In this document: piece by piece, positions 33,351 to 49,753 of the stretch
How the letters are laid out: the number at the start of each line of letters is the position of its first letter
Position numbering within the stretch: position 1 is the stretch's first letter
DNA from: Bryobacterales bacterium
Lineage (GTDB): Bacteria; Acidobacteriota; Terriglobia; Bryobacterales; Bryobacteraceae
Length of the DNA stretch: 64,000 nucleotides
Assembly: GCA_003142185.1 (NCBI GenBank)
Contig: PLOR01000111.1
Span: 1 to 64,000 of the forward strand
Reading direction: 5' to 3'
Notes under the pieces: generated by a model
The model's database searches: none
What the model saw: the letters and a program-made list of their open reading frames with translations, nothing else
What the model was told of the DNA's origin: nothing
Position numbers and translations under genes: made by a program

Positions 33351-33354
33351 ACGA

Positions 33355-35079
33355 ATGGTCACACTGGCCGGCAGGCTTCTGGCATTGCTGATACTCATCA
33401 TCAGGGTGGATAAGAATTGGTTGGAGTGGCTGGCACTGATCGGCGTGCTGCTGCTTGCGCGCTTCCGCCCTTCCTTCGGCGCCAAGCAGTTTCGGCGGGT
33501 GGAGGCGCTCTGCGGACGGCTGGCGCGCAAACGCGGGCTGAGCGTAGCGGCGATTGGCCTGACCACGGTAGCCCTTCGGCTGGCGCTGCTGCCCCTGATG
33601 CCGGTTCCGCAACCGCTGATCACCGACGAGTTCAGCCACCTGCTGCTGGCGGACACGTTAGCGCATGGGCGCCTCGCCAATCCGGCGCACCCCATGTGGA
33701 AGTACTTCGAGACCATTCACGTGATTCAGCAGCCCACATACAGCTCCATGTACTTCCCCGCCCAGGGGATGTTTCTCGCGGCGGGGCAGTTGCTGGGTAA
33801 TCCGTGGTTCGGTGTGCTGATCAGTGTGGGTCTGATGTCAGCGGCGGTCTTGTGGATGCTGCAGGGCTGGTTTCCACCCGGTTGGGCACTGCTCGGGGGA
33901 GTCATTTGCGTTGTGCGCTACGGGTTGTTCACTTATTGGATGAACAGTTACTGGGGCGGAGCGGCGGGCGCAATCGGAGGGGCCCTGGTTCTCGGCGCCA
34001 TACCGCGTATCCATAGATCGATGCGATGCCGTCACTTCGTTCTGCTTGCGATCGGGCTTCTGATACTCGTCAACAGCCGGCCGTTCGAAGGCGCCGCGCT
34101 GGCCCTCCCCGCGGCCATTAGCCTGCTGAACTGGTTGCGGCGGCAGCGCGGCGCCGTGTTGCGCAAGGCGTGGTTGAGAGCCGTGCCGGCGTTCCTTCTC
34201 GTCCTGGCGGCCGGGGGGTTCCTGACGACGCGATATTTCCGCGCCGTTACGGGCGATCCGCTGCTGGCGCCTTACCGCGTGAACCAGCGGACCTACGGTT
34301 GGCCCTTGACATTGGCGTGGTTTACGGTAACGCCGGTTACACACACCTGGCAGCCGATGCACGATTACTATCTCTGGGAGGTGCAACAGCACGAGAAGTT
34401 CCAGGTGAGGACACACGTGATGGAGAACGGCCTGGACGCCATCGTTCTGTGGAGTTTCTTCGTGGGCCCGCTGCTTTCGGTGCCGCTCATCTTTCTACCT
34501 GCCGTATGGCGCGATCGGCGGCGCCGCCTGCTGGTTGCGACGGCCGGATGCATGATCTTAGCCCTCGCTGTGGAACAGTCGCGGTACCCGCATTATGCCG
34601 GGCCGGCTACCTGCGTGGCCCTGGCGCTGGTGGTGGCCTCGCTGCGCCACATGAGAGCGGCGGGCCGGCACATCGGAAGAAGACGGGCGTTGCCGCGCAT
34701 GCTTTTGGCTGCCGCGCTGGCGTGTCCCGTAGTGCTGGCGCTTATGCCTGTGCACCGTATTGTCCTCGGAACGGTGAACCCCTACACGTGCTGGCGTTGC
34801 AGCACTCCGGGAAATCTCGAGCGGGCTTCAGTCTTGAACCGATTCCGCGATATGCCCGGCCTCCATTTACTGATCGTGCGGAATGGTCCGAAGCACAACT
34901 GGATGAACGAATGGGTCTGGAACGAGGCGGACATCGACCATGCGAAGGTGGTTTGGGCACGGGACGCCGGCGACGGCAACCGAGCGCTGTTGCAGTACTT
35001 TCGGAACCGCACCGTGTGGATCGTCGAGCCGGATTGCACCCCACCGCGCGTGAGTAAGTACACCGTTTCGTCGCGATAG
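33355..35079 (+). CDS. Polytopic membrane protein, probable GT-C-fold glycosyltransferase
   Basis: This protein of about 574 aa starts at ATG 33355, 4 nt after the oxidoreductase stop. It has about 10-12 hydrophobic segments. After the first segments, the loop ITDEFSHLLLADTLAHGRL matches the acidic first periplasmic loop of GT-C enzymes (catalytic Asp/Glu). Further features are PAQGMFLAAGQLLGNPW and a soluble C-terminal domain containing WRCSTPGNLERA. GT-C enzymes transfer sugars from a polyprenyl-phosphate donor on the outer face of the inner membrane. Acceptor and donor are unknown. It is tightly coupled to the upstream flavoenzyme. Confidence 0.72.
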   Translation: MVTLAGRLLALLILIIRVDKNWLEWLALIGVLLLARFRPSFGAKQFRRVEALCGRLARKRGLSVAAIGLTTVALRLALLPLMPVPQPLITDEFSHLLLADTLAHGRLANPAHPMWKYFETIHVIQQPTYSSMYFPAQGMFLAAGQLLGNPWFGVLISVGLMSAAVLWMLQGWFPPGWALLGGVICVVRYGLFTYWMNSYWGGAAGAIGGALVLGAIPRIHRSMRCRHFVLLAIGLLILVNSRPFEGAALALPAAISLLNWLRRQRGAVLRKAWLRAVPAFLLVLAAGGFLTTRYFRAVTGDPLLAPYRVNQRTYGWPLTLAWFTVTPVTHTWQPMHDYYLWEVQQHEKFQVRTHVMENGLDAIVLWSFFVGPLLSVPLIFLPAVWRDRRRRLLVATAGCMILALAVEQSRYPHYAGPATCVALALVVASLRHMRAAGRHIGRRRALPRMLLAAALACPVVLALMPVHRIVLGTVNPYTCWRCSTPGNLERASVLNRFRDMPGLHLLIVRNGPKHNWMNEWVWNEADIDHAKVVWARDAGDGNRALLQYFRNRTVWIVEPDCTPPRVSKYTVSSR

Positions 35080-35382: not shown

Positions 35383-36885
35383 ATGTCTGGCCTAGATCTG
35401 CTGCTAGTCAGCCCAGGTGGGCGCGACAAGGTCTACCAGGTGCTCGGCGGAGACGTGGCAGCCATTGAGCCGCCGTTGTGGACGCGGCTGATCGCCGGTT
35501 ACCTCCTGGACCGCGGTGTCTCCCTGCAGATCCTGGATTCTGAAGCCGAGGGACTCGGCCCGGCGGGGATTGCCGCGGTCGTGGATGGGGCTCGGCCTTC
35601 GTTGGCGGCCATGGTGGTGTTTGGACACCAACCCTCGGCCTCCACGCAGTTGATGGCGGCTGCCGGAGAGTCGTGCCGGGCTATCAAGCGCGTGAACCCC
35701 GGTCAGCGGATCATCATTCTGGGAGGGCACGTCTCGGCATTGCCTGAACGCTCGCTGCGCGAGGAGGCCGTCGACTATGTATGCCAAGGCGAAGGTCCGG
35801 TCACAATTCATCATCTCCTCGAGAGACTGCGTGATGGAGGACAGGATGCAGACCTCAGCGGAGTGCCGGGCCTGGTGTGGCGAGAGCAGAACGTAATCCG
35901 CAGTAATCCCACCGCTCCGTTGATCCAGAATCTCGACCGCGATCTGCACGGAAATGTCTGGCACTTACTCCCCATGAGTAAATACCGGGCGCATAATTGG
36001 CAATGCCTGGACGACCTGAGCTCGCGCCAGCCTTACGCCTCCATTTACACGTCCCTTGGCTGTCCCTACAGATGTTCGTTCTGCTGTATCAACGCACCGT
36101 TCGGGGTGAACCGGTATCGGATGCGCAGCCCTGAGAAAGTGGTTGCGGAGATCGATTTGTTGTATCAGTGCTACGGCGTGAAAACCTTCAAGATCATCGA
36201 CGAGATGTTTGTGCTGAACGAACCGCACGTCAGAGACATCTGCGAACGCTTGGCTTCGAAGCCTTACGCCTGCGAGTTGAATATCTGGGCCTACGCGCGT
36301 GTCGACACGGCAACACGCGTGCGGCTTTCGTTGCTGCGGGCAGCTGGGATCCGGTGGCTTGCACTGGGCATCGAGTCAGGCAGCGAACATGTCCGGGAGG
36401 GGTCCGAGAAGGCGCTCGGCAAGCAGGACATCGTCGACATCGTGGCGCAGATCCAGGCAGCCGGTATCAATGTGATGGGCAATTTCATTTTCGGACTTCC
36501 GGACGATGACTCAGAAACGATGCGCCAGACGCTGGATTTGGCGAAGAGGCTCAATTGCGAGTTCGCCAATTTCTACTCCGCGATGGCGTATCCAGGGTCG
36601 AGACTCTATCAGATCGCTTTAGATGAAAACTGGCCACTCCCGAAGAGCTGGACGGGATTTTCGCAGCATAGCCGGGACTGCCAGCCGGTGTCCACTCGCA
36701 AGGTATCTGCGCAGGCCGTACTTGCTTTTCGGGACGACGCTTTCCGCGAGTACTTCACGAGTCCCGGATACCTTGAAATGGTCGCCGGCAAGTTCGGATC
36801 GAGTGCGCGGCGGCATGTCGAGGAAGTAGCGCGCGTTCGTCTCCGCCGGGATCTCCTCGAACTGCATCCGGAGGCCGTCTCCTGA
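35383..36885 (+). CDS. B12-binding-domain radical SAM enzyme
   Basis: This 500-aa protein has an N-terminal cobalamin-binding-like Rossmann domain (about 1-150, with IIILGGHVSALPERSL and VDYVCQGEGP, family-typical). The radical SAM core follows, with C-x3-C-x2-C in SLGCPYRCSFC (about residues 227-234), then FKIIDEMFVLN and GIESGSEHVREG. Class B relatives methylate unactivated carbons, rearrange sugars or close rings. A weak DxHxxG or its absence would mean cobalamin is not bound by the usual His. I do not see that motif clearly. It is first in a tight plus-strand operon with nucleotide-sugar genes, so a sugar or lipid substrate is likely. A GGGGGAG ribosome site precedes the ATG. Confidence 0.85.
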   Translation: MSGLDLLLVSPGGRDKVYQVLGGDVAAIEPPLWTRLIAGYLLDRGVSLQILDSEAEGLGPAGIAAVVDGARPSLAAMVVFGHQPSASTQLMAAAGESCRAIKRVNPGQRIIILGGHVSALPERSLREEAVDYVCQGEGPVTIHHLLERLRDGGQDADLSGVPGLVWREQNVIRSNPTAPLIQNLDRDLHGNVWHLLPMSKYRAHNWQCLDDLSSRQPYASIYTSLGCPYRCSFCCINAPFGVNRYRMRSPEKVVAEIDLLYQCYGVKTFKIIDEMFVLNEPHVRDICERLASKPYACELNIWAYARVDTATRVRLSLLRAAGIRWLALGIESGSEHVREGSEKALGKQDIVDIVAQIQAAGINVMGNFIFGLPDDDSETMRQTLDLAKRLNCEFANFYSAMAYPGSRLYQIALDENWPLPKSWTGFSQHSRDCQPVSTRKVSAQAVLAFRDDAFREYFTSPGYLEMVAGKFGSSARRHVEEVARVRLRRDLLELHPEAVS

Positions 36886-36890
36886 CCAGC

Positions 36891-37637
36891 GTGGCGCCGT
36901 CACTTCGGGATTTGGATATCGCGGTCCTGGCTGGAGGCCTTGGGACGCGGCTGGCATCCGTCGTGAGCGGTTTACCCAAGATTCTCGCTCCAGTCGGGAA
37001 CAGGCCCTTTCTGGACTATTTTCTTTTGTGGCTCGCAGCCAACGGAGCGACTCGCGTTCTGCTGTGTCTGGGACATCGCGCCGATGCGGTCCAGGAATAT
37101 TTGGCCCGGAGCGGTTCCCTTCCGGTCGAGGTCTCGGTTGTGGTCGAAACCATGCCTCTCGGAACCGCAGGAGCCGTCAACTTTGCCCTGCCGCACTTGC
37201 GAAGCGATCCGGTCCTGATCCTTAACGGAGACTCCTATGTCGACGCCGCGTTAGGCGATTTCCTGAGAGAGCACCTGCGCTCAGGGGCGCTTGCGTCCAT
37301 CCTCTGCGCGCAGGTCCCGGATTCGGGCCGGTACGGCCGGGTAGAGATCGATTCCCACCAACATATCGCCCAATTCCGCGAGAAAGACGGCCGCGCGGCG
37401 GGGGCCGGATGGATCAGCGCGGGTGTGTATGCGATCAGTCAGCGCCTCCTGAGCCAGATCGCGGCGTTCCCGACAGGCTCTTTGGAGCGCGACGTATTGG
37501 AAGTGTTACCCGCGGGTACGATCCACGCATTCAGAACGACCGGCCAATTTCTTGACATCGGCACGCCGGAGGCACTGGCCAGTGCAGCCGAGCTATTTTC
37601 GCGGCGCTTCGTGAACTGCGCAGAAAGGCGCTTATGA
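36891..37637 (+). CDS. Sugar-1-phosphate nucleotidyltransferase, HddC-like
   Basis: This 248-aa protein of the NTP-transferase fold starts at GTG 36891, 5 nt after the radical SAM stop. The nucleotide-binding signature AVLAGGLGTRLASVV and Lys in GLPKILAPVGNRPF are at the N terminus. Metal-binding LILNGDSYVD follows, and the end has FLDIGTPEALASA. The order nucleotidyltransferase then GHMP kinase, overlapping by 4 bp, matches HddC-HddA of GDP-D-glycero-alpha-D-manno-heptose synthesis. The expected reaction is heptose-1-P plus GTP to GDP-heptose. Other sugar-1-P guanylyl- or thymidylyltransferases look similar, so the sugar is inferred from context. Confidence 0.82.
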   Translation: MAPSLRDLDIAVLAGGLGTRLASVVSGLPKILAPVGNRPFLDYFLLWLAANGATRVLLCLGHRADAVQEYLARSGSLPVEVSVVVETMPLGTAGAVNFALPHLRSDPVLILNGDSYVDAALGDFLREHLRSGALASILCAQVPDSGRYGRVEIDSHQHIAQFREKDGRAAGAGWISAGVYAISQRLLSQIAAFPTGSLERDVLEVLPAGTIHAFRTTGQFLDIGTPEALASAAELFSRRFVNCAERRL

Positions 37638-38638
37638 TCCTCAGTCGCACACCGTATCGGATCTCTTTGTTCGGGGGAGGGACTGATTATCCGGCCTGGT
37701 ATCGCCGCTACGGCGGAGCGGTCATTGGAACAACCATCAATAAGTACTGTTATATCAGCATACGCACCCTGCCTCCGTTCTTTGAACATCGTCACCGCAT
37801 TGTCTATTCCCGAATCGAGCTTCCCCAGAGCCTGGCGGAGATCCAGCACCCGTCTGTGCGCGCCGTCCTCCAGGAACAGCAGATCGAGACCGGCGTGGAG
37901 ATACAGCATCACGGAGACCTGCCGGCCCGTTCCGGAATGGGATCGAGTTCCTCGTTCACGGTAGGGCTGCTGAACGCGGTGCGAGCCTATAAGGGACAGA
38001 TGTCGTCGCCGGAGTGCCTGGCCAAGGAGGCCATCCGAGTAGAGCAGGACGTCATCAAAGAGAGAGTAGGTTCGCAGGATCAGGTTTGGGCGGCCTACGG
38101 GGGCACGAACCGGATCGATTTTCGTTCTGACGGCAGCTTTGATGTAACACCACTCCTCCTCTCGGCGGAGCGGCGGCGGGAGTTGGAGACACACTTTCTC
38201 CTCGTGTTCACAGGTCTCTCCCGAACCGCCGCACTAATCGCCGAGAAACAGATTGCGAACATGGGCAACTGCGAGGGGCAATTAAGAGCACTTCGGGCAA
38301 TGGTGGACGAGGCGGCTCTTCTTTTGCCGGATCCGGCCCGGCCGTTCAAGGAACTGGGCACCATGTTGCGCGAGGCCTGGGCGATCAAGAAGGAACTGGC
38401 CGGACCCGTTTCGAACCCCGCCATCGACGGGATTTATTCGGCTGCTCTCGAAGCTGGCGCTCTCGGAGGAAAACTGCTGGGCGCGGGCGGCGGGGGATTC
38501 ATGCTCCTGCTGGCGGATCCGCGTGATCATGCCAAGATCCGCGAACGGCTGCGTTCTCCCATCGAAGTCTCCTTCCGAATCGCCAGTCCGGGAAGCAAGA
38601 TCGTCGTCTACGATCCGGACGAGGGACGGGAGGACTAA
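37634..38638 (+). CDS. GHMP-family sugar kinase, HddA-like (heptose-7-phosphate kinase type)
   Basis: This 334-aa GHMP kinase has the N-terminal motif RTPYRISLFGGGTDYPAW, the ATP-binding GLPARSGMGSSSSFTVGLL-like loop (here DLPARSGMGSSSSF), and the C-terminal GGKLLGAGGGGFMLLL. It overlaps the nucleotidyltransferase gene by ATGA. HddA phosphorylates D-glycero-D-manno-heptose-7-P at C1. Fucokinase and related enzymes share these motifs but are usually longer. The matching isomerase (GmhA) and phosphatase (GmhB) are not in the window, so they are elsewhere or the substrate differs. Confidence 0.85.
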   Translation: MILSRTPYRISLFGGGTDYPAWYRRYGGAVIGTTINKYCYISIRTLPPFFEHRHRIVYSRIELPQSLAEIQHPSVRAVLQEQQIETGVEIQHHGDLPARSGMGSSSSFTVGLLNAVRAYKGQMSSPECLAKEAIRVEQDVIKERVGSQDQVWAAYGGTNRIDFRSDGSFDVTPLLLSAERRRELETHFLLVFTGLSRTAALIAEKQIANMGNCEGQLRALRAMVDEAALLLPDPARPFKELGTMLREAWAIKKELAGPVSNPAIDGIYSAALEAGALGGKLLGAGGGGFMLLLADPRDHAKIRERLRSPIEVSFRIASPGSKIVVYDPDEGRED

Positions 38639-38734
38639 GTCGCATGCATCCCGGTTCGGAAACTGTACGACCAGGGCAAGCGAATCCGCAGACACCATAT
38701 GATACAGTAAGCCTGCGGTTGCCGGTGATCGGTG

Positions 38735-39487
38735 ATGTTGATTGATGACTCCATTGGAACGCCAGTTCCTCTCGCAACCGAACCACTAGTGGACCGTGGG
38801 CCGCGGATCCGCCATTTTGGCGCAAGACGGTGGCCGGTCTGGGTTGCACTGCTGGCAATCGTGGCGGCCGTGTGGTATCTGTACCATTCGGGATTCCTCA
38901 CTCCGGAAGGCATCACACGTTACGTGGAGAGCCATCGCGCGTCCGCCATTCCAACTTTCGTTCTGGGATATGCCGTGTGCGTGCTGAGCGGGGTCCCGAC
39001 TCTTCCCTTGAATCTGGCCGCCGGACTTTTCTGGGGAGCGCTCCTCGGTGGCGTCGTATCGGCTTTTGGGGCGGGTTCGGGCGCGGTGGCCGCCTTCTTT
39101 GTGGCCCGCTATCTGGCGGGACAGCCTCTGGCGAGGAGTTCCGAAAGCCGGGTCCTGGCCTGGTTACAGAGGGAGCTCGCCTCGAGAGGCTGGCGCCTGA
39201 TTGCCGTTCTTCGCCTGACTTCCATGATCCCTACCGGGCCGCTCAACTATTTGCTGGGACTCACTTCAATTCGCGCCGGCACCTACGTCTGGTCCACGAT
39301 TGTGTTCTTGTTGCCCCCGAGCGTCGCTGTCGCGGCAGCCGGAAGCGGGATGCGGCCGTTTCTTTTTTCCAGCCGCAGCGGCGCAACTCTGCGGGCACTG
39401 TTAGGCCTTTGTCTTGCGGTCGCGATTCTGGTCGCGATTCGATACATCGCACGCTTTTTTCGCCGGAGGCCAGGGAGTTCATTGTGA
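38735..39487 (+). CDS. TVP38/TMEM64 (VTT) family inner-membrane protein
   Basis: This protein of about 250 aa has 5-6 hydrophobic segments. It carries the VTT/DedA-like signature SGVPTLPLNLAAGLFWG and the characteristic re-entrant motif LRLTSMIPTGPLNYLLGLT. VTT proteins are scramblase- or transporter-like and help move lipids or lipid-linked intermediates across membranes. In this operon it could aid undecaprenyl- or lipid-linked glycan handling. GTG 38732 is an alternative start one codon upstream. Its stop overlaps the start of the GT2 gene (GTGA). Confidence 0.85.
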   Translation: MLIDDSIGTPVPLATEPLVDRGPRIRHFGARRWPVWVALLAIVAAVWYLYHSGFLTPEGITRYVESHRASAIPTFVLGYAVCVLSGVPTLPLNLAAGLFWGALLGGVVSAFGAGSGAVAAFFVARYLAGQPLARSSESRVLAWLQRELASRGWRLIAVLRLTSMIPTGPLNYLLGLTSIRAGTYVWSTIVFLLPPSVAVAAAGSGMRPFLFSSRSGATLRALLGLCLAVAILVAIRYIARFFRRRPGSSL

Positions 39488-40188
39488 AGACGACGATACT
39501 GGCGCTGACGCTGAACGAGTTGGATGGGGTGAAGGTCATTCTGCCCGCCATCGACCCGGCGTGGTACACGCAATTGATCGTAGTGGACGGCGGTTCCACC
39601 GACGGGACGATCGAGTGGTGCCGGGATCACGGTTACCAAGTGTACGTTCAGAAACGGCGCGGGATCCGATTCGCGTACCTAGAGGTGCTGCCCTTAATCG
39701 AAGGCGATATCGTGTTGACTCTAAGCCCGGACGGCAACTGTCCCGTGGACGCGATCCCGAAAATACTCGATAAGATGGCCGAAGGTTACGACCTCGTCAT
39801 TGGCTCGCGGTATCTCGGAGAAGTCCGCAGCGAAGACGATGACGTAGTCACTGGTTTTGGAAATTGGCTGTTCACCCACACGGTCAATTGGCTGCACGGT
39901 GCGAATTACACCGATGCCATGGTGATCTATCGGGCATTCCGCAGGGACTTGATCTACACCTTGGACCTGCAAAAAGACGAATCCTACGCTCTCCCCGAAC
40001 GGCTCTTCCACACGATTATCAGCTGGGAGCCGTTGATGGCCGTGCGCGCGGCAAAACGAAAGATGCGCATCGGCGAAGTCGGCGTTGGAGAACCTCCACG
40101 CATCGGAGGGCAACGTAAGCTGCAGATCTTTCGCTGGGGGGCGGCATACTATTTCCAGTTCTGGCGGGAGAAGTGGTATTGGCGATGA
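39484..40188 (+). CDS. GT2-family glycosyltransferase
   Basis: This protein of about 234 aa has a GT-A fold. The N terminus KTTILALTLNELDG is followed by IVVDGGSTDGTIEWC (nucleotide-sugar binding), then LTLSPDGNCPVDAIPKI with SPDGN in place of the usual DxD neighbourhood, and GSRYLG. The GTG start overlaps the VTT gene stop by 4 bp. A much longer frame exists upstream but lies over the VTT gene and was rejected. It likely adds a sugar to a lipid carrier (dolichol-phosphate-mannose-synthase-like shape, without the C-terminal membrane pair). Sugar and acceptor are unknown. Confidence 0.88.
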   Translation: MKTTILALTLNELDGVKVILPAIDPAWYTQLIVVDGGSTDGTIEWCRDHGYQVYVQKRRGIRFAYLEVLPLIEGDIVLTLSPDGNCPVDAIPKILDKMAEGYDLVIGSRYLGEVRSEDDDVVTGFGNWLFTHTVNWLHGANYTDAMVIYRAFRRDLIYTLDLQKDESYALPERLFHTIISWEPLMAVRAAKRKMRIGEVGVGEPPRIGGQRKLQIFRWGAAYYFQFWREKWYWR

Positions 40189-40325: not shown

Positions 40326-41282
40326 ATGCCTGCCTATCCCGCGCCCGACCTCGTCAGGCTCTACCGCGCGCTGCGCCTGATCCGCAGGTCAGAGGAGGAG
40401 ATCGCTCGCATCTACCCCACCGACAAGATCAAGAGCCCGGTCCATCTGTCCATAGGGCAGGAGGCCGTCTCGGTCGGCGTCTGCGACGCTTTGCGCGCTG
40501 ACGACTTTGTCTCTCCGACCTATCGCTGCCATGCGGCATATCTGGCCAAGGGTGGCGATCTCAAGGCAATGTTTGCGGAGCTGTACGGAAAGGCGAGCGG
40601 ATGTGCGCGCGGCCGTGGCGGCTCCATGCATATGATCGGCTTGGACCACAATATAATCGGCGCTTCGGCGGTGGTCGGCACCACCGTTCCGGTGGCCCTC
40701 GGCTACGCACTCGCCTTGAAGCGGGAAGGAAAGGGCCGCGTCGTCGCGCTGTTCCTTGGCGACGGAGCCACCGAGGAAGGCGTCTTCTACGAGAGCCTGA
40801 ATTTCGCCTCGTTGCACCGGCTGCCGGCGCTGTTTGTCTGCGAGAACAACTTCTACGCGATCCACGCGCCGCTTGCGAAGCGGTGGGCGACGGCGCGCCT
40901 TTGCGAGAGGGTCGCGACGTTTGGGATTCCGGCCCACATGATACCCCAGTCGGATGTGCTGGAGATTCGCAGTAAGGCCGCGGAATGCCTCGAAGCGATC
41001 CGGGCCGGAGCCGGGCCCGCGTTCCTCGAATGCCACACGTACCGCTGGCGCGAACACGTTGGTCCTGGAGAAGACTACGACTTCGGCTACCGGAACCGCG
41101 ACGAGCTCCGCCCATGGCAGGACAAGGATGCGGTGTCGACGCTCGGCGCATCCCTGGACCCCGGCGAACGTGCCCGGGTCGATGCGGCAGTCGAAGCGGA
41201 GATCGCCGCCGCCATCGAAGCGGCGGAGCAGGCGGAGTGGCCGGATACCAGGGAGCTTCATAACTATGTCTATGCCGACTGA
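40326..41282 (+). CDS. Thiamine-diphosphate E1 alpha subunit (pyruvate-dehydrogenase-like), stand-alone
   Basis: This 318-aa protein is homologous to 2-oxoacid dehydrogenase E1 alpha. It has the ThDP/Mg motif GDGATEEG, a spacer, and then ENNFYA (GDG...NN), plus GRGGSMHM and GASAVVGTTVPVALG as in PDH E1 alpha. A GAGGAG site lies 9 nt upstream. The beta subunit gene overlaps by 17 bp. No E2 acyltransferase, lipoyl protein or E3 gene is nearby. The pair lies inside a nucleotide-sugar operon. Stand-alone E1 pairs are known to transfer two-carbon (ketol or acetyl) units in secondary metabolism, for example AviB1/AviB2 for the avilamycin branched sugar. A similar role on a sugar is inferred here. 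Confidence 0.88.
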   Translation: MPAYPAPDLVRLYRALRLIRRSEEEIARIYPTDKIKSPVHLSIGQEAVSVGVCDALRADDFVSPTYRCHAAYLAKGGDLKAMFAELYGKASGCARGRGGSMHMIGLDHNIIGASAVVGTTVPVALGYALALKREGKGRVVALFLGDGATEEGVFYESLNFASLHRLPALFVCENNFYAIHAPLAKRWATARLCERVATFGIPAHMIPQSDVLEIRSKAAECLEAIRAGAGPAFLECHTYRWREHVGPGEDYDFGYRNRDELRPWQDKDAVSTLGASLDPGERARVDAAVEAEIAAAIEAAEQAEWPDTRELHNYVYAD

Positions 41283-42336
41283 CGGAGGCCGCCTGCTGCG
41301 TTATGTGGATGCCCTGAGGGAAGGAATCGCTCAGGAGATGGAGCGTGATCCTCGCGTCTTCCTTTTTGGCCTCGACGTGGACGACCACAAGGGAATTCAG
41401 GGTTCGACGCTGGGGCTCCTGGACCAGTTCGGACCTGAGAGAGTCTTCGGCACTCCAATGTCCGAGGATGCGATGACAGGCGTCGCCATCGGAGCTGCTA
41501 TGGCCGGGCTGCGACCTATCCATGTGCACATCCGCATGGATTTCCTGTTGTTGTGCATGAATCAACTCATCAACATCGCGGCCAAGGCACATTCCATGTA
41601 CGGCGGCGCGGTGCGCGTGCCACTGGTGGTGCGCAGCATGATCGGGAAATCCTGGGGGCAGGGTGCGCAACATAGCCAGGCCCTGTACTCGATGTTCATG
41701 CACGTGCCCGGACTCAAGGTGGTGGCGCCCTCCAACGCCAACGACGCCAAGGGTTGCATGATTGCCGCGATACGGGACGATAACCCCGTGATTTTTGTGG
41801 AGCACCGGTTGCTGTATCCCACCCAGGCCGTCGTGCCGGAGTCTTCCTACACGGTGGAGTTCGGCCGGGCCCGCGTCTGTGCGCGCGGCAAGGATATCAC
41901 GCTTGTCGGGGTGTCGAACATGGTGGTCGAGTGTCTGCGCGCCCGTGAGTTGCTCCTCGACGCTGGAATTGAGGCTGAGGTCATCGATCCCATCAGCCTG
42001 GCCCCACTCGACTCTACAACCGTGTTGGAATCCGCTCTTCGCACCCGGAGGCTTCTGGTCGCGGATAATACCTGGACGAACTGCGGAGCCAGCGCGGAGA
42101 TCCTTGCACGTGTGGCGGAATCCGGCGGAGTGGAGGCCGGAGTGCGCATGGCACGCATTGGCTTTGCTGCCACCACCTGCCCACCGAGTCCGCCGCTCGA
42201 AAACGAATTCTATCCGAATCCGGCCAAGATTGCCTCCGCGGCGTACGCGTTGGTTCGCGGAAATAACGACGACTGGGCGCCGGACCCGGAGCGCGCCGCG
42301 CTGAGCTATCAGTTGCAGTTTCGAGGACCCTTCTGA
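41266..42336 (+). CDS. Thiamine-diphosphate E1 beta subunit (pyruvate-dehydrogenase-like)
   Basis: This protein of about 356 aa has a transketolase-type pyrimidine-binding domain followed by a transketolase C-terminal domain. The ATG at 41266 has GGGAG about 10 nt upstream and overlaps the alpha gene by 17 bp, so a stoichiometric alpha2beta2 complex is expected. The conserved active-site neighbourhood is WGQGAQHSQALYSMFMHVPG (His of the E1 beta HS pair), followed by GLKVVAPSNANDAKG. The C-terminal 30 residues (DWAPDPERAALSYQLQFRGPF region) are unlike respiratory PDH and may contact a different substrate or partner. Substrate is unknown. Confidence 0.88.
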   Translation: MSMPTDGGRLLRYVDALREGIAQEMERDPRVFLFGLDVDDHKGIQGSTLGLLDQFGPERVFGTPMSEDAMTGVAIGAAMAGLRPIHVHIRMDFLLLCMNQLINIAAKAHSMYGGAVRVPLVVRSMIGKSWGQGAQHSQALYSMFMHVPGLKVVAPSNANDAKGCMIAAIRDDNPVIFVEHRLLYPTQAVVPESSYTVEFGRARVCARGKDITLVGVSNMVVECLRARELLLDAGIEAEVIDPISLAPLDSTTVLESALRTRRLLVADNTWTNCGASAEILARVAESGGVEAGVRMARIGFAATTCPPSPPLENEFYPNPAKIASAAYALVRGNNDDWAPDPERAALSYQLQFRGPF

Positions 42337-42348
42337 GATGACAGGCTC

Positions 42349-43518
42349 ATGTTCTACGAATTAACAGCCTCCACGTGGGGCAAGGAAGAAACCGGAGCGA
42401 TTGAGCGCGTCATACGCAGCGACCGCTTCACGATGGCCGATGAGGTGGCCGCTTTCGAGCGGGAGTTCGCGGATTACTTCGGAATGCGGTACGGCGTGAT
42501 GGCGAACTCGGGCTCCTCAGCCAATTTGATCGCCACCGCAGCTCTGTTCTACAAACGCGAGAACCCGCTGCAGCGCGGTGATGAGGCCATCGTCCCATCC
42601 ATCGCCTGGAGCACCACTTACAGCCCACTCCAGCAGTACGGCCTGCGGCTGCGGTTTGTCGATGTTGAGCTGGAGACCCTCAACATGGACACCTCGCGCC
42701 TGGAGGAGGCCTTGACACCCCGTACGCGCCTGCTCGTTGGGGTAAGCGTGCTGGGAAACCCCGCTGCGCTCGATGTGATGCGCGCTTTCGCGCACCAGCA
42801 CGCCTTGTACTTCCTCGAAGATAATTGCGAGTCCATGGACGCCGAGCTGGGCGGACAGAAGACCGGCACTTTTGGCGATCTGAGCACGTTCAGCTTCTTT
42901 TTTTCGCACCACATCTCGTCCATGGAAGGCGGCATCGTTCTCACCAATGACGAAGAGCTCTATCACTTACTACGGTCCTTGCGCGCGCACGGCTGGACGC
43001 GAGATCTGCCGCCGGGTTCGCCCCTGTTCGAACGGCACGGTAACGAGCACTTCGAGGCCTACCGCTTCGTCCTGCCTGGCTACAACGTCCGACCGCTCGA
43101 GATGGTCGGCGCGGTAAGCCGTGAGCAACTCAAGAAGCTTCCGGCGATGACGCAGCAGCGCCGCAGGAACCTGGCGCTCTTCCAGCGCCTCTTTGAAGGC
43201 GATAGCCGGTTCATCACGCAGCGGGAAAACGGAAAGAGCTCCAGCTTCTCATTCACATTGGTTCTCAACCCTGAGGCCGGCTTGGACCGGGATGGCGTGT
43301 TCTCTTCACTGCGAGATGCCGGAATCGGATTTCGCATGATTACCGGCGGCTGCCTACCCTGCCACGACACCATCCAGTACTATGACTACGACACGGTTGG
43401 ACCGCTGACCAACGCTCGGCTGGCGCATAACCAAGGCTTCTTTGTTGGCAACTACCCGTCCGACCTCACCGGCGCGATTACGAGGTTACGGGAGGTTCTG
43501 AACCGGGTAGGCCGATGA
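42349..43518 (+). CDS. DegT-fold PLP enzyme with Lys-to-His replacement, ColD/DdhC-like sugar 3-dehydratase
   Basis: This 389-aa aspartate-aminotransferase-fold protein belongs to the DegT/DnrJ/EryC1/StrS group. It has NSGSSANL (phosphate-cup), EDNCESMDA with the cofactor Asp158, and GTFGDLSTFSFF. Where true aminotransferases have the Schiff-base Lys (SK), it has S186-H187-H188 (FFFSHHISSMEGG). ColD and the E1 protein DdhC also have His there. They use PMP to remove the C3 hydroxyl from a 4-keto-6-deoxy sugar, giving 3,6-dideoxy sugars. The same chemistry is therefore likely here rather than transamination. It follows the E1 beta gene by 12 nt. A 4-keto-sugar producer is not certain in this window. 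Confidence 0.85.
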   Translation: MFYELTASTWGKEETGAIERVIRSDRFTMADEVAAFEREFADYFGMRYGVMANSGSSANLIATAALFYKRENPLQRGDEAIVPSIAWSTTYSPLQQYGLRLRFVDVELETLNMDTSRLEEALTPRTRLLVGVSVLGNPAALDVMRAFAHQHALYFLEDNCESMDAELGGQKTGTFGDLSTFSFFFSHHISSMEGGIVLTNDEELYHLLRSLRAHGWTRDLPPGSPLFERHGNEHFEAYRFVLPGYNVRPLEMVGAVSREQLKKLPAMTQQRRRNLALFQRLFEGDSRFITQRENGKSSSFSFTLVLNPEAGLDRDGVFSSLRDAGIGFRMITGGCLPCHDTIQYYDYDTVGPLTNARLAHNQGFFVGNYPSDLTGAITRLREVLNRVGR

Positions 43519-44001: not shown

Positions 44002-46914
44002 TCACAACGGGATACCGGGGTCACCCCAAGGTGGCGGGCCAAATAGACTCGGCAAGGGACCGAACCACGCGAGCCCCAGCAGGAGCAGGCCAAACAGCCA
44101 TGCGGCGCGCCTCGCTCCAATACCGGTTGCGTAGCCGACACAAACCAAGGCTATAGCGTGCATCCACAGGCCTGCGGCGGTCCAGTCCACCACTTGACCG
44201 AAGACCGCAACGCCTGCGAGGTCCATAACAAGACCGATAATCGCAACCCAACGAACAAACTGAACGTAGCGGGCTTTCTTCGTCAGCACGCCCACCGCGG
44301 CCGCGACGCCAGTGGTGAGCGTCAACCAGACGACGTGATTCGCCAGATAAGCGCCCGGGCATCCGCCGTGGGGTGCGAACACCGCGAAAAAACGCCAAAG
44401 CCCCCCCCGAACCGGGTCAGCCGCAAGAACGCACACTACATAGTACATCGAGCCAAATGCCACTAATCCGCGCTTCACCCAACTCGGGCACTTAGAAATC
44501 AAGAAAACTGCATCGGCCGCAGGGCTCGGGCTGAGCGCCGCTGAATGTCCGAGATCTGTGACGAGAAGATAAACGACCGCACAAGTGGCGGCGATTCCTA
44601 ACGAGAGCATCAACCAGACTAGAAACGAGAGTGAAAACTCGCCGAACTTCCAGACCACTTCCGAAGGCCCCGGAGGCACAATCACCGACTTGTATCCGAG
44701 GTTTGTACATATCGTCGGCGTCTCCACCGAGTTCACCCAAGCGCGCCAGCGCGGATCGTACCCGTCTGCATAATACAACACAGCGGGGGACGAACTCGGG
44801 TTGCACAGGTGGATGTGAATCCTGTCAAATGTAAAACTGCGGACGGATATCTCCGCTGACGGCGCGCGATCATCCTCAGGGCCAAGCGTGGTCAACTGGC
44901 CCAACGCAACCTTGACCACCGAAGGACTAGTGATGTTGACGTTCCCCGCAAACAACATTCCTCCATTTCCGTCCTTCGTGCGCAAGGCGGCACCGACATC
45001 GTCTTGCAGCGGCAACGAATATATGCGCGAGAATAGCTGCAGTTTCGGGAAGTCCATGCCGGCCAGTGTGCGATAGCCTGCGGCTTCCGGAATCGGGTGA
45101 CCGAGTCGGCCGCTGCCCAGTCGATCCGGCCGGTGCTTAATCCATATGTCGTGAAAGGCACCCACACCCTTCAGCCACTCTTCTGTCCGAAAAAGACTGG
45201 CAACGCGGTCTACGTAAACAAACGAGTCTATACTGCCATACAGACTGCCAAACGGACCTCGGGCGGGCCCCATTTCCTGGCCCGTCTTCGGTGGAGAGCT
45301 TCCAAACAAATATGGTGACAGTGCGGCGGCCCTCTGGGAGTGCCCGTAGTCGAGTTGCCGGTGCATGGGAAATGCGTAATTGAAACTCTTAAACAACTCA
45401 ACGACCTCTGGTGAGACCTGCGGAGTTCGAAGGTACTCCCTTTCTACCTTTACTGAACCTACATCAACAACGTGCAGGCCCAAGAGCATCACTGCGCACA
45501 AGTAGGCGCTATGAATTGCCTGTCTGTATATCAGGACTAGGAGGACGATGGCGCCTATTACAAAACCTGCATAACCGATTACTGTGTGTACCGGAGCCTC
45601 AGCTCCGGGCACCAACAGCAATATCAAAGTTGCTGCCGCGATGAGGAACGGTCGCCTGTCAGCGCCGGGCTTCAATAGAGACTGCCATGCGCGGTCAACT
45701 CCAAACCCTGCATAGAAAATCAAGAACATCTTGACTATGGGTGCGACCAGGCCGATGTGACGAAACATCCGGCCCAAAGGAAATGCGTAATAGAACGCGG
45801 CTGTTACCAGCGTAGCGGCGCTGAACATCGCGAGTACGAGCGCGGTCAATCCAAATGCCGCCGCACGGCGCGAACGGACGCAAAAAAGCGCGACGGCGGC
45901 GAACGGAACGACTAGTAGACCCGCGTACAGTGTGATGTCTAAGCTATCCACGAATCGGCCGAGGAGGTCCCAGTACTTCCAAAAGGTGTTAAGGCCGCCG
46001 TACGTCAAAAAAGAATTCAGCGAGGCGACACTTCCGTCACTGCCGCGGCCGGGGTGATCAATGGCCATCGTGGCTGTACTCAGCGGATAAATCAGAAGTG
46101 TTCCGGCCATGAAAGCTGCTGGTAGCAATAACAAGGGCAGCTGCCGGCGGCTTCCCGACCACCAGTTCATGAGCACACCCCTGCAATGTGCTGCACCGAA
46201 GGCGAAATAGATGCTGCAAAAGAGACACAAGATGAAGGCTGTGTAGGGCACGAAATATGGTAGGTTCCCGATTACTGTGGCCGCGGACAGCAAGGCCGCG
46301 GCTAATAGATAGCGGGGCAGCCCTGTTTCGAGTGCCTTTAGAGCGGCATACAGTATCAGGGGAATCAAATAGTAGGCGTGGAGGTCGAACCATACCTGTG
46401 TGGAGGAGATGGCCGTGTAAGTAATCGCCGCCGATACGAACAACACAGCCGCAATTGATTGATAGCATCGACGGCCGAGTAGTATACATCCGCCGAGCAG
46501 GGCAGCCTCATCGAATATCAACCCCGCGTGGTATAGCCACAGGAAGTTGATGCGTTTGAGGACGGAAGCAAGCGGATAAATACAAGAAGTTAACAGTCCT
46601 TGCGACAAGACAATCCAGATGCCGGATGGCACACCGTGAGCCATGAATGGATACCACAGCGGCGGTCTGCCACTCCGGACCGCCTCGTTGAAACTGATGT
46701 ACTGAAGTTGAAGATATTGAAAAGCATCGTGCCTAACCGGCACCCGGCTGTTTTCCAGCAGTGCAAGCCGCAGAATGACTAGAGGTGCAAAGAGTCCAAG
46801 GAACACGAATACGGCCGGCCTCTGCAATACAACAGATCTGCCCAAGCGAACAAACCGCTGGCAGACACTAACTGCCTGGGTTGCTGTCCACCGATGACTC
46901 GGAGTGGTTTTCAC
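44002..46914 (-). CDS. Large polytopic membrane protein of the YfhO type (GT-C-like)
   Basis: This 970-aa protein starts at GTG 46914 with AAGGGG close upstream. It has roughly 14-18 hydrophobic segments. The first periplasmic loop RHDAFQYLQLQYISFNEAV and GRPPLWYPFMAHG match YfhO-family proteins, predicted GT-C transferases that decorate envelope polymers from lipid-linked sugars. Between the membrane blocks is a soluble region (about 500-760) with beta-rich segments, for example FDRIHIHLCNPSSSPAVLYY. Its base composition looks more AT-rich and its codon use less biased than neighbouring genes, hinting at acquisition. It is divergent from the SDR gene. Confidence 0.72.
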   Translation of the reverse strand: MKTTPSHRWTATQAVSVCQRFVRLGRSVVLQRPAVFVFLGLFAPLVILRLALLENSRVPVRHDAFQYLQLQYISFNEAVRSGRPPLWYPFMAHGVPSGIWIVLSQGLLTSCIYPLASVLKRINFLWLYHAGLIFDEAALLGGCILLGRRCYQSIAAVLFVSAAITYTAISSTQVWFDLHAYYLIPLILYAALKALETGLPRYLLAAALLSAATVIGNLPYFVPYTAFILCLFCSIYFAFGAAHCRGVLMNWWSGSRRQLPLLLLPAAFMAGTLLIYPLSTATMAIDHPGRGSDGSVASLNSFLTYGGLNTFWKYWDLLGRFVDSLDITLYAGLLVVPFAAVALFCVRSRRAAAFGLTALVLAMFSAATLVTAAFYYAFPLGRMFRHIGLVAPIVKMFLIFYAGFGVDRAWQSLLKPGADRRPFLIAAATLILLLVPGAEAPVHTVIGYAGFVIGAIVLLVLIYRQAIHSAYLCAVMLLGLHVVDVGSVKVEREYLRTPQVSPEVVELFKSFNYAFPMHRQLDYGHSQRAAALSPYLFGSSPPKTGQEMGPARGPFGSLYGSIDSFVYVDRVASLFRTEEWLKGVGAFHDIWIKHRPDRLGSGRLGHPIPEAAGYRTLAGMDFPKLQLFSRIYSLPLQDDVGAALRTKDGNGGMLFAGNVNITSPSVVKVALGQLTTLGPEDDRAPSAEISVRSFTFDRIHIHLCNPSSSPAVLYYADGYDPRWRAWVNSVETPTICTNLGYKSVIVPPGPSEVVWKFGEFSLSFLVWLMLSLGIAATCAVVYLLVTDLGHSAALSPSPAADAVFLISKCPSWVKRGLVAFGSMYYVVCVLAADPVRGGLWRFFAVFAPHGGCPGAYLANHVVWLTLTTGVAAAVGVLTKKARYVQFVRWVAIIGLVMDLAGVAVFGQVVDWTAAGLWMHAIALVCVGYATGIGARRAAWLFGLLLLGLAWFGPLPSLFGPPPWGDPGIPL

Positions 46915-47184: not shown

Positions 47185-48132
47185 GTGAGCCAACAGACTT
47201 ATTCCGTTCTCGTGACCGGTGGGGCCGGATACCTCGGCTCGATCCTGGTTCCAGCCCTGATCGCCGAAGGGTATCGCGTGACCGTTCTGGACAACTTCCT
47301 TTTCGGCCAGGCGCCACTCAACCAACTCTGCGCCGATCCAAAGTTCGACGTACACCACGGAGACGCTCGAGAAGAAGGCGTGCTGAAGCCGTTGCTCAAG
47401 AGCGCCGACTTTGTCATTCCCCTGGCGGCTCTGGTGGGCGCGCGGCTCTGCGACTTGGACAGGACTGGAGCGCAGACCGTTAATCGGGATGCGATTCTAA
47501 CTCTGCTGCGGCTGGCCGGCAAGAATCAGGGGATCCTGATGCCAGTCACGAACAGTGGGTATGGGATCGGCGAAAAAGGGAAGTTTTGTACCGAGGAATC
47601 TCCCCTGCGCCCCATCTCCCTGTATGGACGCACCAAGGTGGAAGCCGAGCGCGCCATACTGGACCGTGGCAACGGGATCACTTTCCGCCTGGCCACCGTT
47701 TTCGGGATGTCGCCCCGCATGCGGATCGACCTCCTGGTCAATGACTTCGTCTATCGTGCCGTGACCGACCGCGCGGTGGTTCTCTTCGAGCCTCACTTCA
47801 AGCGGAACTTCATCCATGTGCGGGACGTAGCCCGGGTATTTATCCATGGCATTCGCAATTTCGAAAGCCTGAAAGACCAGCCCTACAACGTCGGCCTGTC
47901 TGACGCGAATCTCTCGAAGCTGGAGTTGTGCCAGAAGATCAAAGAGCACATTCCGGCTTTCGTGTTCCTCGATGCGCCGCTCGGCGAAGACCCGGACAAG
48001 CGGGACTATATCGTCTCCAATGAGAAGATCGAGAGGTCGGGCTTCCAGCCCAGCTACTCCCTCGATGATGGCATCCGCGAACTCATCAAGGGTTATCGCA
48101 TGTTACGCAACAGCCGCTACAGCAACGTCTGA
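47185..48132 (+). CDS. NAD-dependent epimerase/dehydratase (extended SDR), nucleotide-sugar type
   Basis: This 315-aa extended SDR starts at GTG 47185 with AGGAG 13 nt upstream. It has the cofactor motif TGGAGYLGS, the active-site Ser region TNSGYGIG, catalytic Y-x3-K in YGRTKVEAE, and NFIHVRDVARVF, typical of nucleotide-sugar epimerases. The absence of a TDE/TDD-type dehydratase motif favours epimerase or reductase over 4,6-dehydratase, though this is not decisive. It would act on the GDP- or other NDP-sugar made in this locus. It stands alone between two minus-strand membrane glycosyltransferase genes and converges on the next one. Confidence 0.88.
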   Translation: MSQQTYSVLVTGGAGYLGSILVPALIAEGYRVTVLDNFLFGQAPLNQLCADPKFDVHHGDAREEGVLKPLLKSADFVIPLAALVGARLCDLDRTGAQTVNRDAILTLLRLAGKNQGILMPVTNSGYGIGEKGKFCTEESPLRPISLYGRTKVEAERAILDRGNGITFRLATVFGMSPRMRIDLLVNDFVYRAVTDRAVVLFEPHFKRNFIHVRDVARVFIHGIRNFESLKDQPYNVGLSDANLSKLELCQKIKEHIPAFVFLDAPLGEDPDKRDYIVSNEKIERSGFQPSYSLDDGIRELIKGYRMLRNSRYSNV

Positions 48133-48157: not shown

Positions 48158-49753
48158 TTACGGAGCCGTAACCAAAAACAGCAACTCGTGTCCGCGCTTG
48201 GCCTGTAAGCTGACCGTGTAATGCCGTGCCAGCAACGCATCCAGACTCGAGTTCGCGCTGTTGCCGACGTAGTACAGCAGAAAGCTCCGATTCGCGGTTA
48301 GGAAGCCGTCCAGGCCGACGATTGCGTCCGGCGCCATGGGCCTGATCTTAAGGAGAATGATCTCGTTGGTCGTATCGGTGGTCTTGCGGGCAAATGGCAA
48401 ATCGGTGACGTAAAACAACCTCCTCTTCAGGAAGGGCGGAGCATAGCGCCAAAGCGGCGGGAAAATCAGTCCCTCTGATATCACGATGGGCAGTCGACCC
48501 CTATTCTGTTCGAGCAGCAGTGGATGGTCGTCGTAGGCGCGCGCATTGCCGGCAAATCCCAAACTCAGAGCCGAGATGTAGAACTGAGCGGACAGCACCC
48601 CCAGCACCGCCAGTGCAATAGCCGGCCGCTTACGAAGCGCGAAGTGCACGAGGAAACCTGCCAACATTGCCAGCCCCATGGCTCCCGGCAGCACGTACCG
48701 CAGCACGTAGGTTTGAGTGACCAGGACGGCGACCAGAAAAACCAGAATCGGGAATGTGGCCAGACCAGCGGCCAGCGCCAATTCGGCAAACGGGATGGAC
48801 CGGCGATATGCGTCCTCTTGTCCGTCCGGGTCGCTTCGCCTCCAAGTCAGAAAGAGAACGAGAATCAGACTGATCAGCAGTGCCGGAATCAGGGGAAAAA
48901 GAAGCCAGGAATAGTCCTGGAAAAGCGCCCCCATTGTCGGCTGAGCGAAGTAGTCCGCGTGCAGAGCGTTGCCGGCAACGTTGCCACGCACATTCCGCAC
49001 TATCGGCATCCAGAAGATCAGCGGCACCATTCCCGCGCACATGGCGAGCCCCGGCGCCCACTCGATGCGCCGCCTTCCAAGCCACCGCGTTGCTTCGGCT
49101 GACGCCAGCGGCACAATCAGCAGGGCAGCGTAGAAGTGCGTAGAAACCAGTCCGGCAACGCTCAAAGCAAGGACGCCCGGCCAGAGCAGGGACCGCGAAC
49201 TCCCGGCACAGCGTTGCCAGGAAAGCAGCGCCAGGCCTGCAAAACCCAAGACCACCGCATAGGGGCGGGCTTCATAGGCCCAGGGAAGGGCTCCGGATTG
49301 CGCGAAACACACCAACGCAATACTCGCCGCCACGGTGGAGGTGTGACGGCGCACAAAGGCGAAAAGACAAAGACCAGCGACCCAAAAACCCAGGATTGCG
49401 GGCAGACGCGCGACCAGTTCGGTCTCGCCGAGACCACGGAGCAGCAGCCTGCTCAGCAGGTAGTACAGCGGCGGATTGCCATCCACGGTCCGCAGCAGTG
49501 CGGACCAGATGTCCTGGACCCGGGGCAGCGTGCTCACGTACAGAGCGACAAGTTCGTCCAGCCAAAAGTCTCGGCGGAGTGCTGCCCCGACCGCAGCCAA
49601 CGCATAGAACACGGTAAACCACACGAGCGCGAACCACGGATGCGTTTCGACCTGGGCCGCGAATCTCGTTGCGTGGCCGGCAATCGAAGCAGCGGTCCGC
49701 TGAACACGGCCGTCTGCGGGCACCACGGTCTGGCCTTGGTGGCTGATTCCCAA
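48158..49753 (-). CDS. GT39/ArnT-like membrane glycosyltransferase
   Basis: This 531-aa protein starts at TTG 49753, favoured by GGAGG with 5-nt spacing. About 11 membrane segments follow a basic N-terminal tail. The first large loop contains RRDFWLDELVALYVS, with the acidic pair expected for the catalytic site of dolichyl/polyprenyl-phosphate-sugar protein transferases (PMT/ArnT). The later PPLYYLLSRLLL and a C-terminal soluble domain fit the family. It probably transfers a sugar from polyprenyl phosphate to a lipid or polymer outside the membrane. It converges on the SDR gene with a 25-bp gap. Confidence 0.85.
   Translation of the reverse strand: MGISHQGQTVVPADGRVQRTAASIAGHATRFAAQVETHPWFALVWFTVFYALAAVGAALRRDFWLDELVALYVSTLPRVQDIWSALLRTVDGNPPLYYLLSRLLLRGLGETELVARLPAILGFWVAGLCLFAFVRRHTSTVAASIALVCFAQSGALPWAYEARPYAVVLGFAGLALLSWQRCAGSSRSLLWPGVLALSVAGLVSTHFYAALLIVPLASAEATRWLGRRRIEWAPGLAMCAGMVPLIFWMPIVRNVRGNVAGNALHADYFAQPTMGALFQDYSWLLFPLIPALLISLILVLFLTWRRSDPDGQEDAYRRSIPFAELALAAGLATFPILVFLVAVLVTQTYVLRYVLPGAMGLAMLAGFLVHFALRKRPAIALAVLGVLSAQFYISALSLGFAGNARAYDDHPLLLEQNRGRLPIVISEGLIFPPLWRYAPPFLKRRLFYVTDLPFARKTTDTTNEIILLKIRPMAPDAIVGLDGFLTANRSFLLYYVGNSANSSLDALLARHYTVSLQAKRGHELLFLVTAP

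Follow-up and report, generated by a model that had tools for sequence, protein, structure and literature searches.

Organization of the Locus

The window analyzed here is a 64,000-nucleotide stretch of the genome of a soil-type Bryobacterales bacterium (contig PLOR01000111.1, positions 1 to 64,000), and we focus on three consecutive plus-strand genes that encode the two chains of a stand-alone E1 enzyme and a ColD-like dehydratase, which we propose to lie at the center of a sugar-branching pathway. E1-alpha (40326-41282; Pfam E1_dh, 2.7e-57) would supply the pyrophosphate-binding half of a thiamin diphosphate (ThDP) dependent carboligase and E1-beta (ATG at 41266 to 42336; Pfam Transket_pyr and Transketolase_C) the pyrimidine-binding half. 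They are followed by a predicted His-type C3-dehydratase dependent on pyridoxal phosphate or pyridoxamine phosphate (PLP/PMP; 42349-43518; Pfam DegT_DnrJ_EryC1, 8.7e-70). The two E1 frames overlap by 17 bp and only 12 nt separate the end of E1-beta from the start of the ColD-like gene.

Both Pfam and PDB searches place the two E1 chains in the pyruvate dehydrogenase (PDH) E1 family. In alignments R90, the GDG motif, N196 and the loop His of human E1-alpha correspond to R67, G145-D146-G147, N174/N175 and H244 of the window chain, and E59 and His128 of human E1-beta correspond to E67 and H136. Alpha H244 and beta E67 and H136 are invariant in 74 of 74 aligned E1 pairs so that, as judged by alignment, the set of ThDP-binding and catalytic residues is intact. 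The best solved relative of the DegT enzyme is ColD (2gms, E=2e-108), and the residue that replaces the PLP lysine, His187 in the window sequence S-H187-H-I (the HHIS site), aligns with ColD His188, the position altered in the H188N and H188K structures. An earlier note on this DNA had described the same gene layout, intact ThDP motifs and His for Lys replacement, and reading frames, Pfam matches and alignments confirm each of these. ARAGORN also calls a tRNA-Arg on the minus strand at 42131-42225, antisense within E1-beta, that is almost certainly spurious.

Upstream of E1-alpha, co-directional and tightly spaced, are genes for a radical S-adenosylmethionine (radical-SAM) enzyme, an HddC-like guanylyltransferase, an HddA-like kinase, a VTT-family membrane protein and a family 2 glycosyltransferase (GT2). 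Pfam and NCBIfam searches bear out the HddA/HddC-like pair and glycosyltransferase that had been assigned to the operon. The earlier gene list was correct in what it held and incomplete, lacking both the radical-SAM gene (35383-36885) and a gene for a putative C4-dehydrogenase (47185-48132).

Exchange of the Proposed Carboligase in a Conserved Cassette

ColD matches at E<=1e-90 are few in the phylum (4 among 396 genomes). An E1-alpha/beta pair lies directly upstream in the matches of at least 62% identity (n=3, the window's own included) and does not in the match at 48%. When ColD patterns were run against 84,980 species genomes, with genes called by tblastn and a composition-based caller, 58 loci came up. 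Many of the loci considered here derive from metagenome bins on short contigs. The cassette of E1-alpha, E1-beta, ColD and a short-chain dehydrogenase/reductase (SDR), accompanied by HddA, HddC and usually a radical-SAM gene, recurs in Azospirillum and other Rhodospirillales, Acidobacteriota, Gammaproteobacteria, Magnetococcales, Myxococcota, Nitrospinota and Verrucomicrobiota, and the linkage is kept in Alphaproteobacteria and Betaproteobacteria as well. Because the synteny spans phyla, chance association is excluded. The co-occurrence of E1 with ColD-like and HddA/HddC genes, for which a search had been recommended, is thus conserved and linkage is not lost among relatives. One locus (L158) is found on plasmid p5 of Azospirillum argentinense Az39, with a split transketolase replacing E1 and insertion-sequence genes nearby, a setting that suggests mobility of the pathway.

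Two classes of ColD loci have to be distinguished, class A with the window-type enzyme and class B with a colitose-type ColD that is 46-49% identical to it, and these separate on the ColD tree with a support of 100 (Shimodaira-Hasegawa-like approximate likelihood ratio test, SH-aLRT). The scan was seeded with a window-like ColD and favours class A. Among 59 distinct class-A loci 45 carry E1-alpha/beta, 8 a split transketolase (L079, L082, L088, L089, L090, L105, L106 and L158), 3 an enzyme resembling acetolactate synthase (AHAS) or YerE (L070, L081, L096) and 3 no carboligase; in these last (L084, L094, L147) a contig end falls on the beginning of ColD or close to it. Counting only carboligases within 8 kb the numbers are 45 for E1, 7 for split transketolase and 3 for the AHAS type, and in L119 a split transketolase lies ∼11 kb off. 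On the ColD tree the type of carboligase switches several times inside the class-A clade. None of the 12 colitose-type loci has an E1 or transketolase gene, and in 12 of 12 GMD-like and GDP-fucose-synthase-like genes are present. Three of the 12 (L148, L151, L152) hold a distant AHAS/YerE-like gene (31-32%) adjoining a second DegT gene, a pair that possibly makes another branched sugar.

In order to have an independent sample we used 399 Burkholderiales genomes that had played no part in framing the idea. There, 7 of 8 class-A loci have an E1 or transketolase, six of them new and one, from Uliginosibacterium, already in hand as L105; at the eighth locus the contig breaks off. The corresponding count for class B is 0 of 7. 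This sample and the class-B contrast lessen the seeding bias and do not remove it.

According to a 2025 review only three of the nine ThDP superfamilies are known to use ketone acceptors, the decarboxylases (YerE-like), aKADH2 (E1-alpha/beta) and the transketolases, and all three have been implicated in the formation of C-branched sugars (PMC12247030). The enzymes that replace each other at class-A loci belong to exactly these three superfamilies. Their swapping in a single slot points to a carboligation as the E1 step. These enzymes have in common that they pass a two-carbon unit on to a carbonyl group, and the shared acceptor would be the 4-keto-3-deoxy sugar made by the ColD-like enzyme.

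A GDP-Heptose as the Likely Acceptor

The nature of this acceptor is suggested by the genes around the core. The HddC-like sugar-1-phosphate guanylyltransferase (36891-37637, plus strand; NTP_transferase, 7.7e-30) and the HddA-like D-glycero-D-manno-heptose-7-phosphate kinase (37634-38638, plus strand; GHMP kinase domains) fall below their NCBIfam cut-offs, the former with 126 bits for the mannose-1-phosphate guanylyltransferase model and 116 of 300 bits for HddC, and the latter with 128 bits against a cut-off of 600 for HddA, its best match. Since both score under the equivalog cut-offs, the case for heptose specificity rests on their neighbors. Foremost among these is the Cj1427-like SDR (47185-48132, plus strand), a proposed GDP-D-glycero-D-manno-heptose C4-dehydrogenase that shares 67% identity with the SDR found in the cluster of a relative (L045). 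The latter matches PDB entries 6vo6/6vo8 at E=1.8e-114, far ahead of other solved structures. We take 6vo6 to be Cj1427, a GDP-heptose C4-dehydrogenase, and this match led us to reject a 4,6-dehydratase role for the SDR of the clusters.

The Cj1427 reaction yields L-2-hydroxyglutarate from α-ketoglutarate, and a gene of the L-2-hydroxyglutarate oxidase type is found in the clusters of seven relatives (L091, L141-L145, L147), although not in the window itself; the one tested, from L144, scores 359 bits against an NCBIfam cut-off of 299. From sequence, the arrangement looks as if the clusters had their own means of returning the by-product to α-ketoglutarate, and fits a Cj1427-type reaction independently of the identity we assign to 6vo6. 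GmhA-like and GmhB-like genes are present within the clusters of relatives and, in the host genome, on contigs C66 and C109, respectively. Cj1427 acting together with the HS:5 PLP-dependent C3-dehydratase produces GDP-D-glycero-3-deoxy-4-keto-heptose in vitro (PMC10680097).

A reading that is unlikely, yet the best of the alternatives, has HddA and HddC acting on a hexose phosphate with carboligation on a GDP-3-deoxy-4-keto-hexose, giving a yersiniose-like octose. The slightly better score of the HddC-like protein against the mannose-1-phosphate model and the sub-threshold HddA/HddC matches leave room for it, ColD itself acts on a hexose, and a GMD-like gene lies near 11 of the 59 class-A loci. 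However, it would not account for an SDR that matches 6vo6 rather than a 4,6-dehydratase, nor for the GmhA-, GmhB- and L-2-hydroxyglutarate-oxidase-like genes of the relatives, and class-A ColD forms a clade apart from that of the hexose-type loci, which have GMD and a fucose-synthase-like gene. The earlier note had left open an octose or a nonose; with GDP-heptose the most likely acceptor it is the nonose that is favored and the octose that is not.

The E1 Pair Set against Central Metabolism

A second alternative, which we regard as improbable, is that the nucleotide sugar is not the substrate of the ThDP enzyme, which would instead supply a precursor of the heptose branch, for example a ketose phosphate such as sedoheptulose-7-phosphate, or acetoin- or acetolactate-like units. 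A split transketolase could indeed yield sedoheptulose-7-phosphate, the substrate of GmhA, but E1 and AHAS-type enzymes, which are unable to form this compound, fill the same slot. Moreover, the ThDP genes go along with the dehydratase of the His type, while the colitose-type ColD loci lack both E1 and transketolase. The association extends to divergent His-type DegT enzymes of ∼30% identity (L055:7986-9167, L049:14740-15906 and L116:9950-11098), each of which adjoins an E1 pair or an AHAS-like gene; these loci appear to be part of a wider family of dehydratase-plus-carboligase clusters.

How the window pair relates to the E1 of 2-oxo-acid dehydrogenase complexes was addressed with a tree built from 72 concatenated E1-alpha/beta pairs. 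All 41 pairs from ColD clusters fall, together with nine others that lack an adjacent E2, in a single clade (SH-aLRT 100), and outside of it are 12 of 12 E2-adjacent pairs as well as the host's own PDH-type pair, which is encoded separately on contig C34. The window was scanned for lipoyl, E2 and E3 genes and none was found, as had been claimed; the host's E2 genes are confined to contigs C106 and C51, and the ColD clusters of relatives showed no E2 gene either. The notion of a spare PDH subunit was rejected, the tree setting the window E1 apart from E2-linked enzymes, and the E2/E3 partner in central metabolism named earlier as the observation that would count against a sugar-branching role did not emerge, every E2-adjacent E1 being excluded from the clade. 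That the pair is an orphan E1 using E2/E3 encoded elsewhere is thus very improbable: its family membership, full set of catalytic residues and an E2 gene on C106 would be in keeping with such a role, but the host has a PDH-type pair of its own in a different part of the tree, E1 adjoins ColD at 45 loci and the transketolase and AHAS-type enzymes that substitute for it feed no E2.

Five further loci (L047, L050, L051, L052, L054) fall in the same E1 clade without ColD and with sugar-type genes nearby, in L052 a Lys-type DegT and an HldE-like gene; these are possibly other E1-dependent sugar branches. Elsewhere in the genome there is a fused E1-alpha/beta (728-779 aa; G000:C73:12861-13763; L002, L059) that forms a very long branch on the tree.

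Proposed Pathway

Taken together, the window probably encodes a GDP-heptose branching pathway in which E1 places a two-carbon unit on C4, leading to a branched GDP-nonose for a surface glycan. HddA and HddC, with GmhA-like and GmhB-like enzymes, would produce GDP-D-glycero-D-manno-heptose, the Cj1427-like SDR would oxidize it at C4 and the ColD-like enzyme would remove O-3 to give GDP-3-deoxy-4-keto-heptose. The E1 pair, having no E2/E3, would then decarboxylate pyruvate on ThDP, with the acetyl carbanion attacking the C4 ketone, and the product would be a GDP-activated 4-C-acetyl-3-deoxy-heptose, a branched C9 sugar. The radical-SAM enzyme would tailor this nonose, and the GT2 of the polyprenyl-phosphate type would carry the branched sugar into a surface glycan. 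The steps predicted to precede E1 are grounded in homology and in chemistry already in print, whereas the E1 step is proposed from the pattern of carboligase exchange; C4 as the acceptor and all that comes after carboligation are inferred. Pyruvate is the presumed donor because characterized aKADH2 enzymes prefer it (PMC12247030). Transfer of a two-carbon unit by E1 onto the ColD-made 4-keto-3-deoxy sugar, as envisaged in the earlier note, is in this way supported, in sharpened form, by gene linkage, the E1 clade and the exchange of carboligases.

Several considerations weigh against the scheme. The donor could be some other 2-oxo acid. A split transketolase normally gives a hydroxyacetyl rather than an acetyl branch, and products may therefore vary by locus. 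The link to Cj1427 depends on taking 6vo6 to be that enzyme, HddA and HddC do not reach their equivalog thresholds, and the C4-dehydrogenase gene lies 3.7 kb past the ColD-like gene with an opposite-strand gene in between.

The Radical-SAM Enzyme

The radical-SAM enzyme (35383-36885, plus strand; Pfam Radical_SAM and B12-binding) has homologues of 48-66% identity in the clusters of most relatives, whichever of the three carboligases is present. Five genomes with an otherwise complete set (G455-G459) have no copy anywhere, and we therefore rejected it as a core-pathway step and regard it as a tailoring activity. The CxxxCxxC motif is found in 33 of 34 sequences and the DxHxxG B12 motif in 0 of 34. 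Its best NCBIfam match is HpnJ, a cyclitol-ether synthase, at 167 bits, far short of the cut-off of 578. A predicted model (pLDDT, the predicted local distance difference test, of 88) has as its nearest solved fold AprD4 (6fd2), a sugar diol dehydratase, the fold search placing the enzyme only in the general B12/radical-SAM family with AprD4 first. The reaction could be a methylation, a dehydration or a ring closure.

A more speculative thought, and a doubtful one, is that the enzyme forms a bond between C7 and the carbon that had been the acetyl carbonyl (C8), giving a sugar of the caryose type, caryose being a 4,8-cyclo-3,9-dideoxy-nonose (PMC9026286). With C7 supplied by the heptose, C2 by E1, the 3-deoxy function by ColD and the 9-methyl by the acetyl group, the sum is exactly its skeleton, a match in formula only. 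Against this, cyclization has just the weak HpnJ-like score behind it with AprD4 as the nearest fold, and by our reading of its name caryose would need inversion at C5. No genes for caryose biosynthesis were found reported in the open-access library searched, where the mentions are structural.

Relation to Known Systems

The closest parallels are the aKADH2 carboligases of antibiotic pathways (aldgamycin, kosinostatin and the kibdelomycin enzyme KbDH, with avilamycin and paulomycin presumed), which like the window have a two-gene E1 without E2/E3 beside deoxy-keto-sugar genes and which attach a pyruvate-derived C2 branch to a ring ketone (PMC12247030). The window shares their traits of split alpha and beta chains, no linked E2, E3 or lipoyl gene and deoxy-keto nucleotide-sugar genes alongside. 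As far as a comparison by description allows, the difference is that those systems make specialized metabolites, whereas here there is a GDP-heptose base, a surface-glycan-type glycosyltransferase and an E1 that is interchangeable with enzymes of two other ThDP superfamilies. Split-gene transketolases, in turn, have been reported only from Streptomycetes, in miharamycin and amipurimycin biosynthesis, and occur here in proteobacterial GDP-heptose clusters in place of E1.

In Yersinia the dehydratase that forms the 3-deoxy-4-keto sugar is a His-type DegT enzyme. Yersiniose formation by YerE likewise combines a 3-deoxy-4-keto nucleotide sugar with a C2 unit from pyruvate, for a surface polysaccharide (PMC12247030). 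YerE, however, is a single-chain member of the decarboxylase superfamily that acts on a CDP-3,6-dideoxy-hexose, whereas in the window the enzyme is an E1 pair and the sugar a GDP-heptose that is not 6-deoxygenated; the three sister loci listed above do use an AHAS/YerE-like enzyme. The Campylobacter jejuni modification of GDP-heptose shares with the window the GDP-heptose base, the C4-oxidation enzyme family and the type of PLP C3-dehydratase (PMC10680097), but the last steps of the published scheme belong to epimerases and C4-reductases and a ThDP carboligase does not figure in it, and the in vitro synthesis of the acceptor was achieved by artificially combining two enzymes from different serotypes. 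ColD of the GDP-colitose pathway is ∼47-50% identical to the window enzyme, also has His for Lys and carries out 3-deoxygenation of a GDP-4-keto sugar. The colitose loci differ in belonging to a separate ColD clade, with GMD and GDP-fucose-synthase/ColC-like genes and neither E1 nor transketolase, and the window's class falls outside the colitose group.

A literature search confined to an open-access library turned up no ThDP-branched GDP-heptose. C-branched sugars made by ThDP enzymes are known from antibiotics and a few sugars of lipopolysaccharides, and a GDP-heptose base would be a new variant of such pathways. The cassette recurs in at least 5 phyla, and one slot filled by three kinds of enzyme amounts to a natural experiment in enzyme replacement and allows the function to be tested, the acceptor being a compound already known. 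If the proposal is correct, branched nonose surface sugars are predicted in Azospirillum and Acidobacteriota, and three new enzyme sets are on offer for the preparation of chiral tertiary alcohols.

Other Genes of the Window

Between the HddA-like and E1-alpha genes lie, both on the plus strand, the VTT/DedA-family membrane protein (38732-39487; Pfam VTT_dom, 9.9e-18) and the GT2 glycosyltransferase of the polyprenyl-phosphate-sugar type (39484-40188; Pfam Glycos_transf_2, 1.9e-12), which resembles AglJ (NCBIfam, 87 bits). In locus L091 too the VTT/DedA gene adjoins GT2, the GT2 counterpart in that cluster being 65% identical.

Further upstream on the plus strand are a flavin/NAD-binding amine-oxidoreductase-like gene, by eye UDP-galactopyranose-mutase-like (31998-33350; Pfam Amino_oxidase, 3.7e-9), and a putative GT-C type membrane protein (33268-35079), so assigned by inference from its hydrophobic pattern, with a Pfam search giving no match. 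The two genes overlap by 83 bp, and the first is possibly in a common transcription unit with the E1 and ColD genes. Downstream, two large membrane proteins encoded on the minus strand (44002-46914 and 48158-49753) flank the C4-dehydrogenase gene; one of them has a weak PMT_2 match, and they are likely to be GT-C-type transferases.

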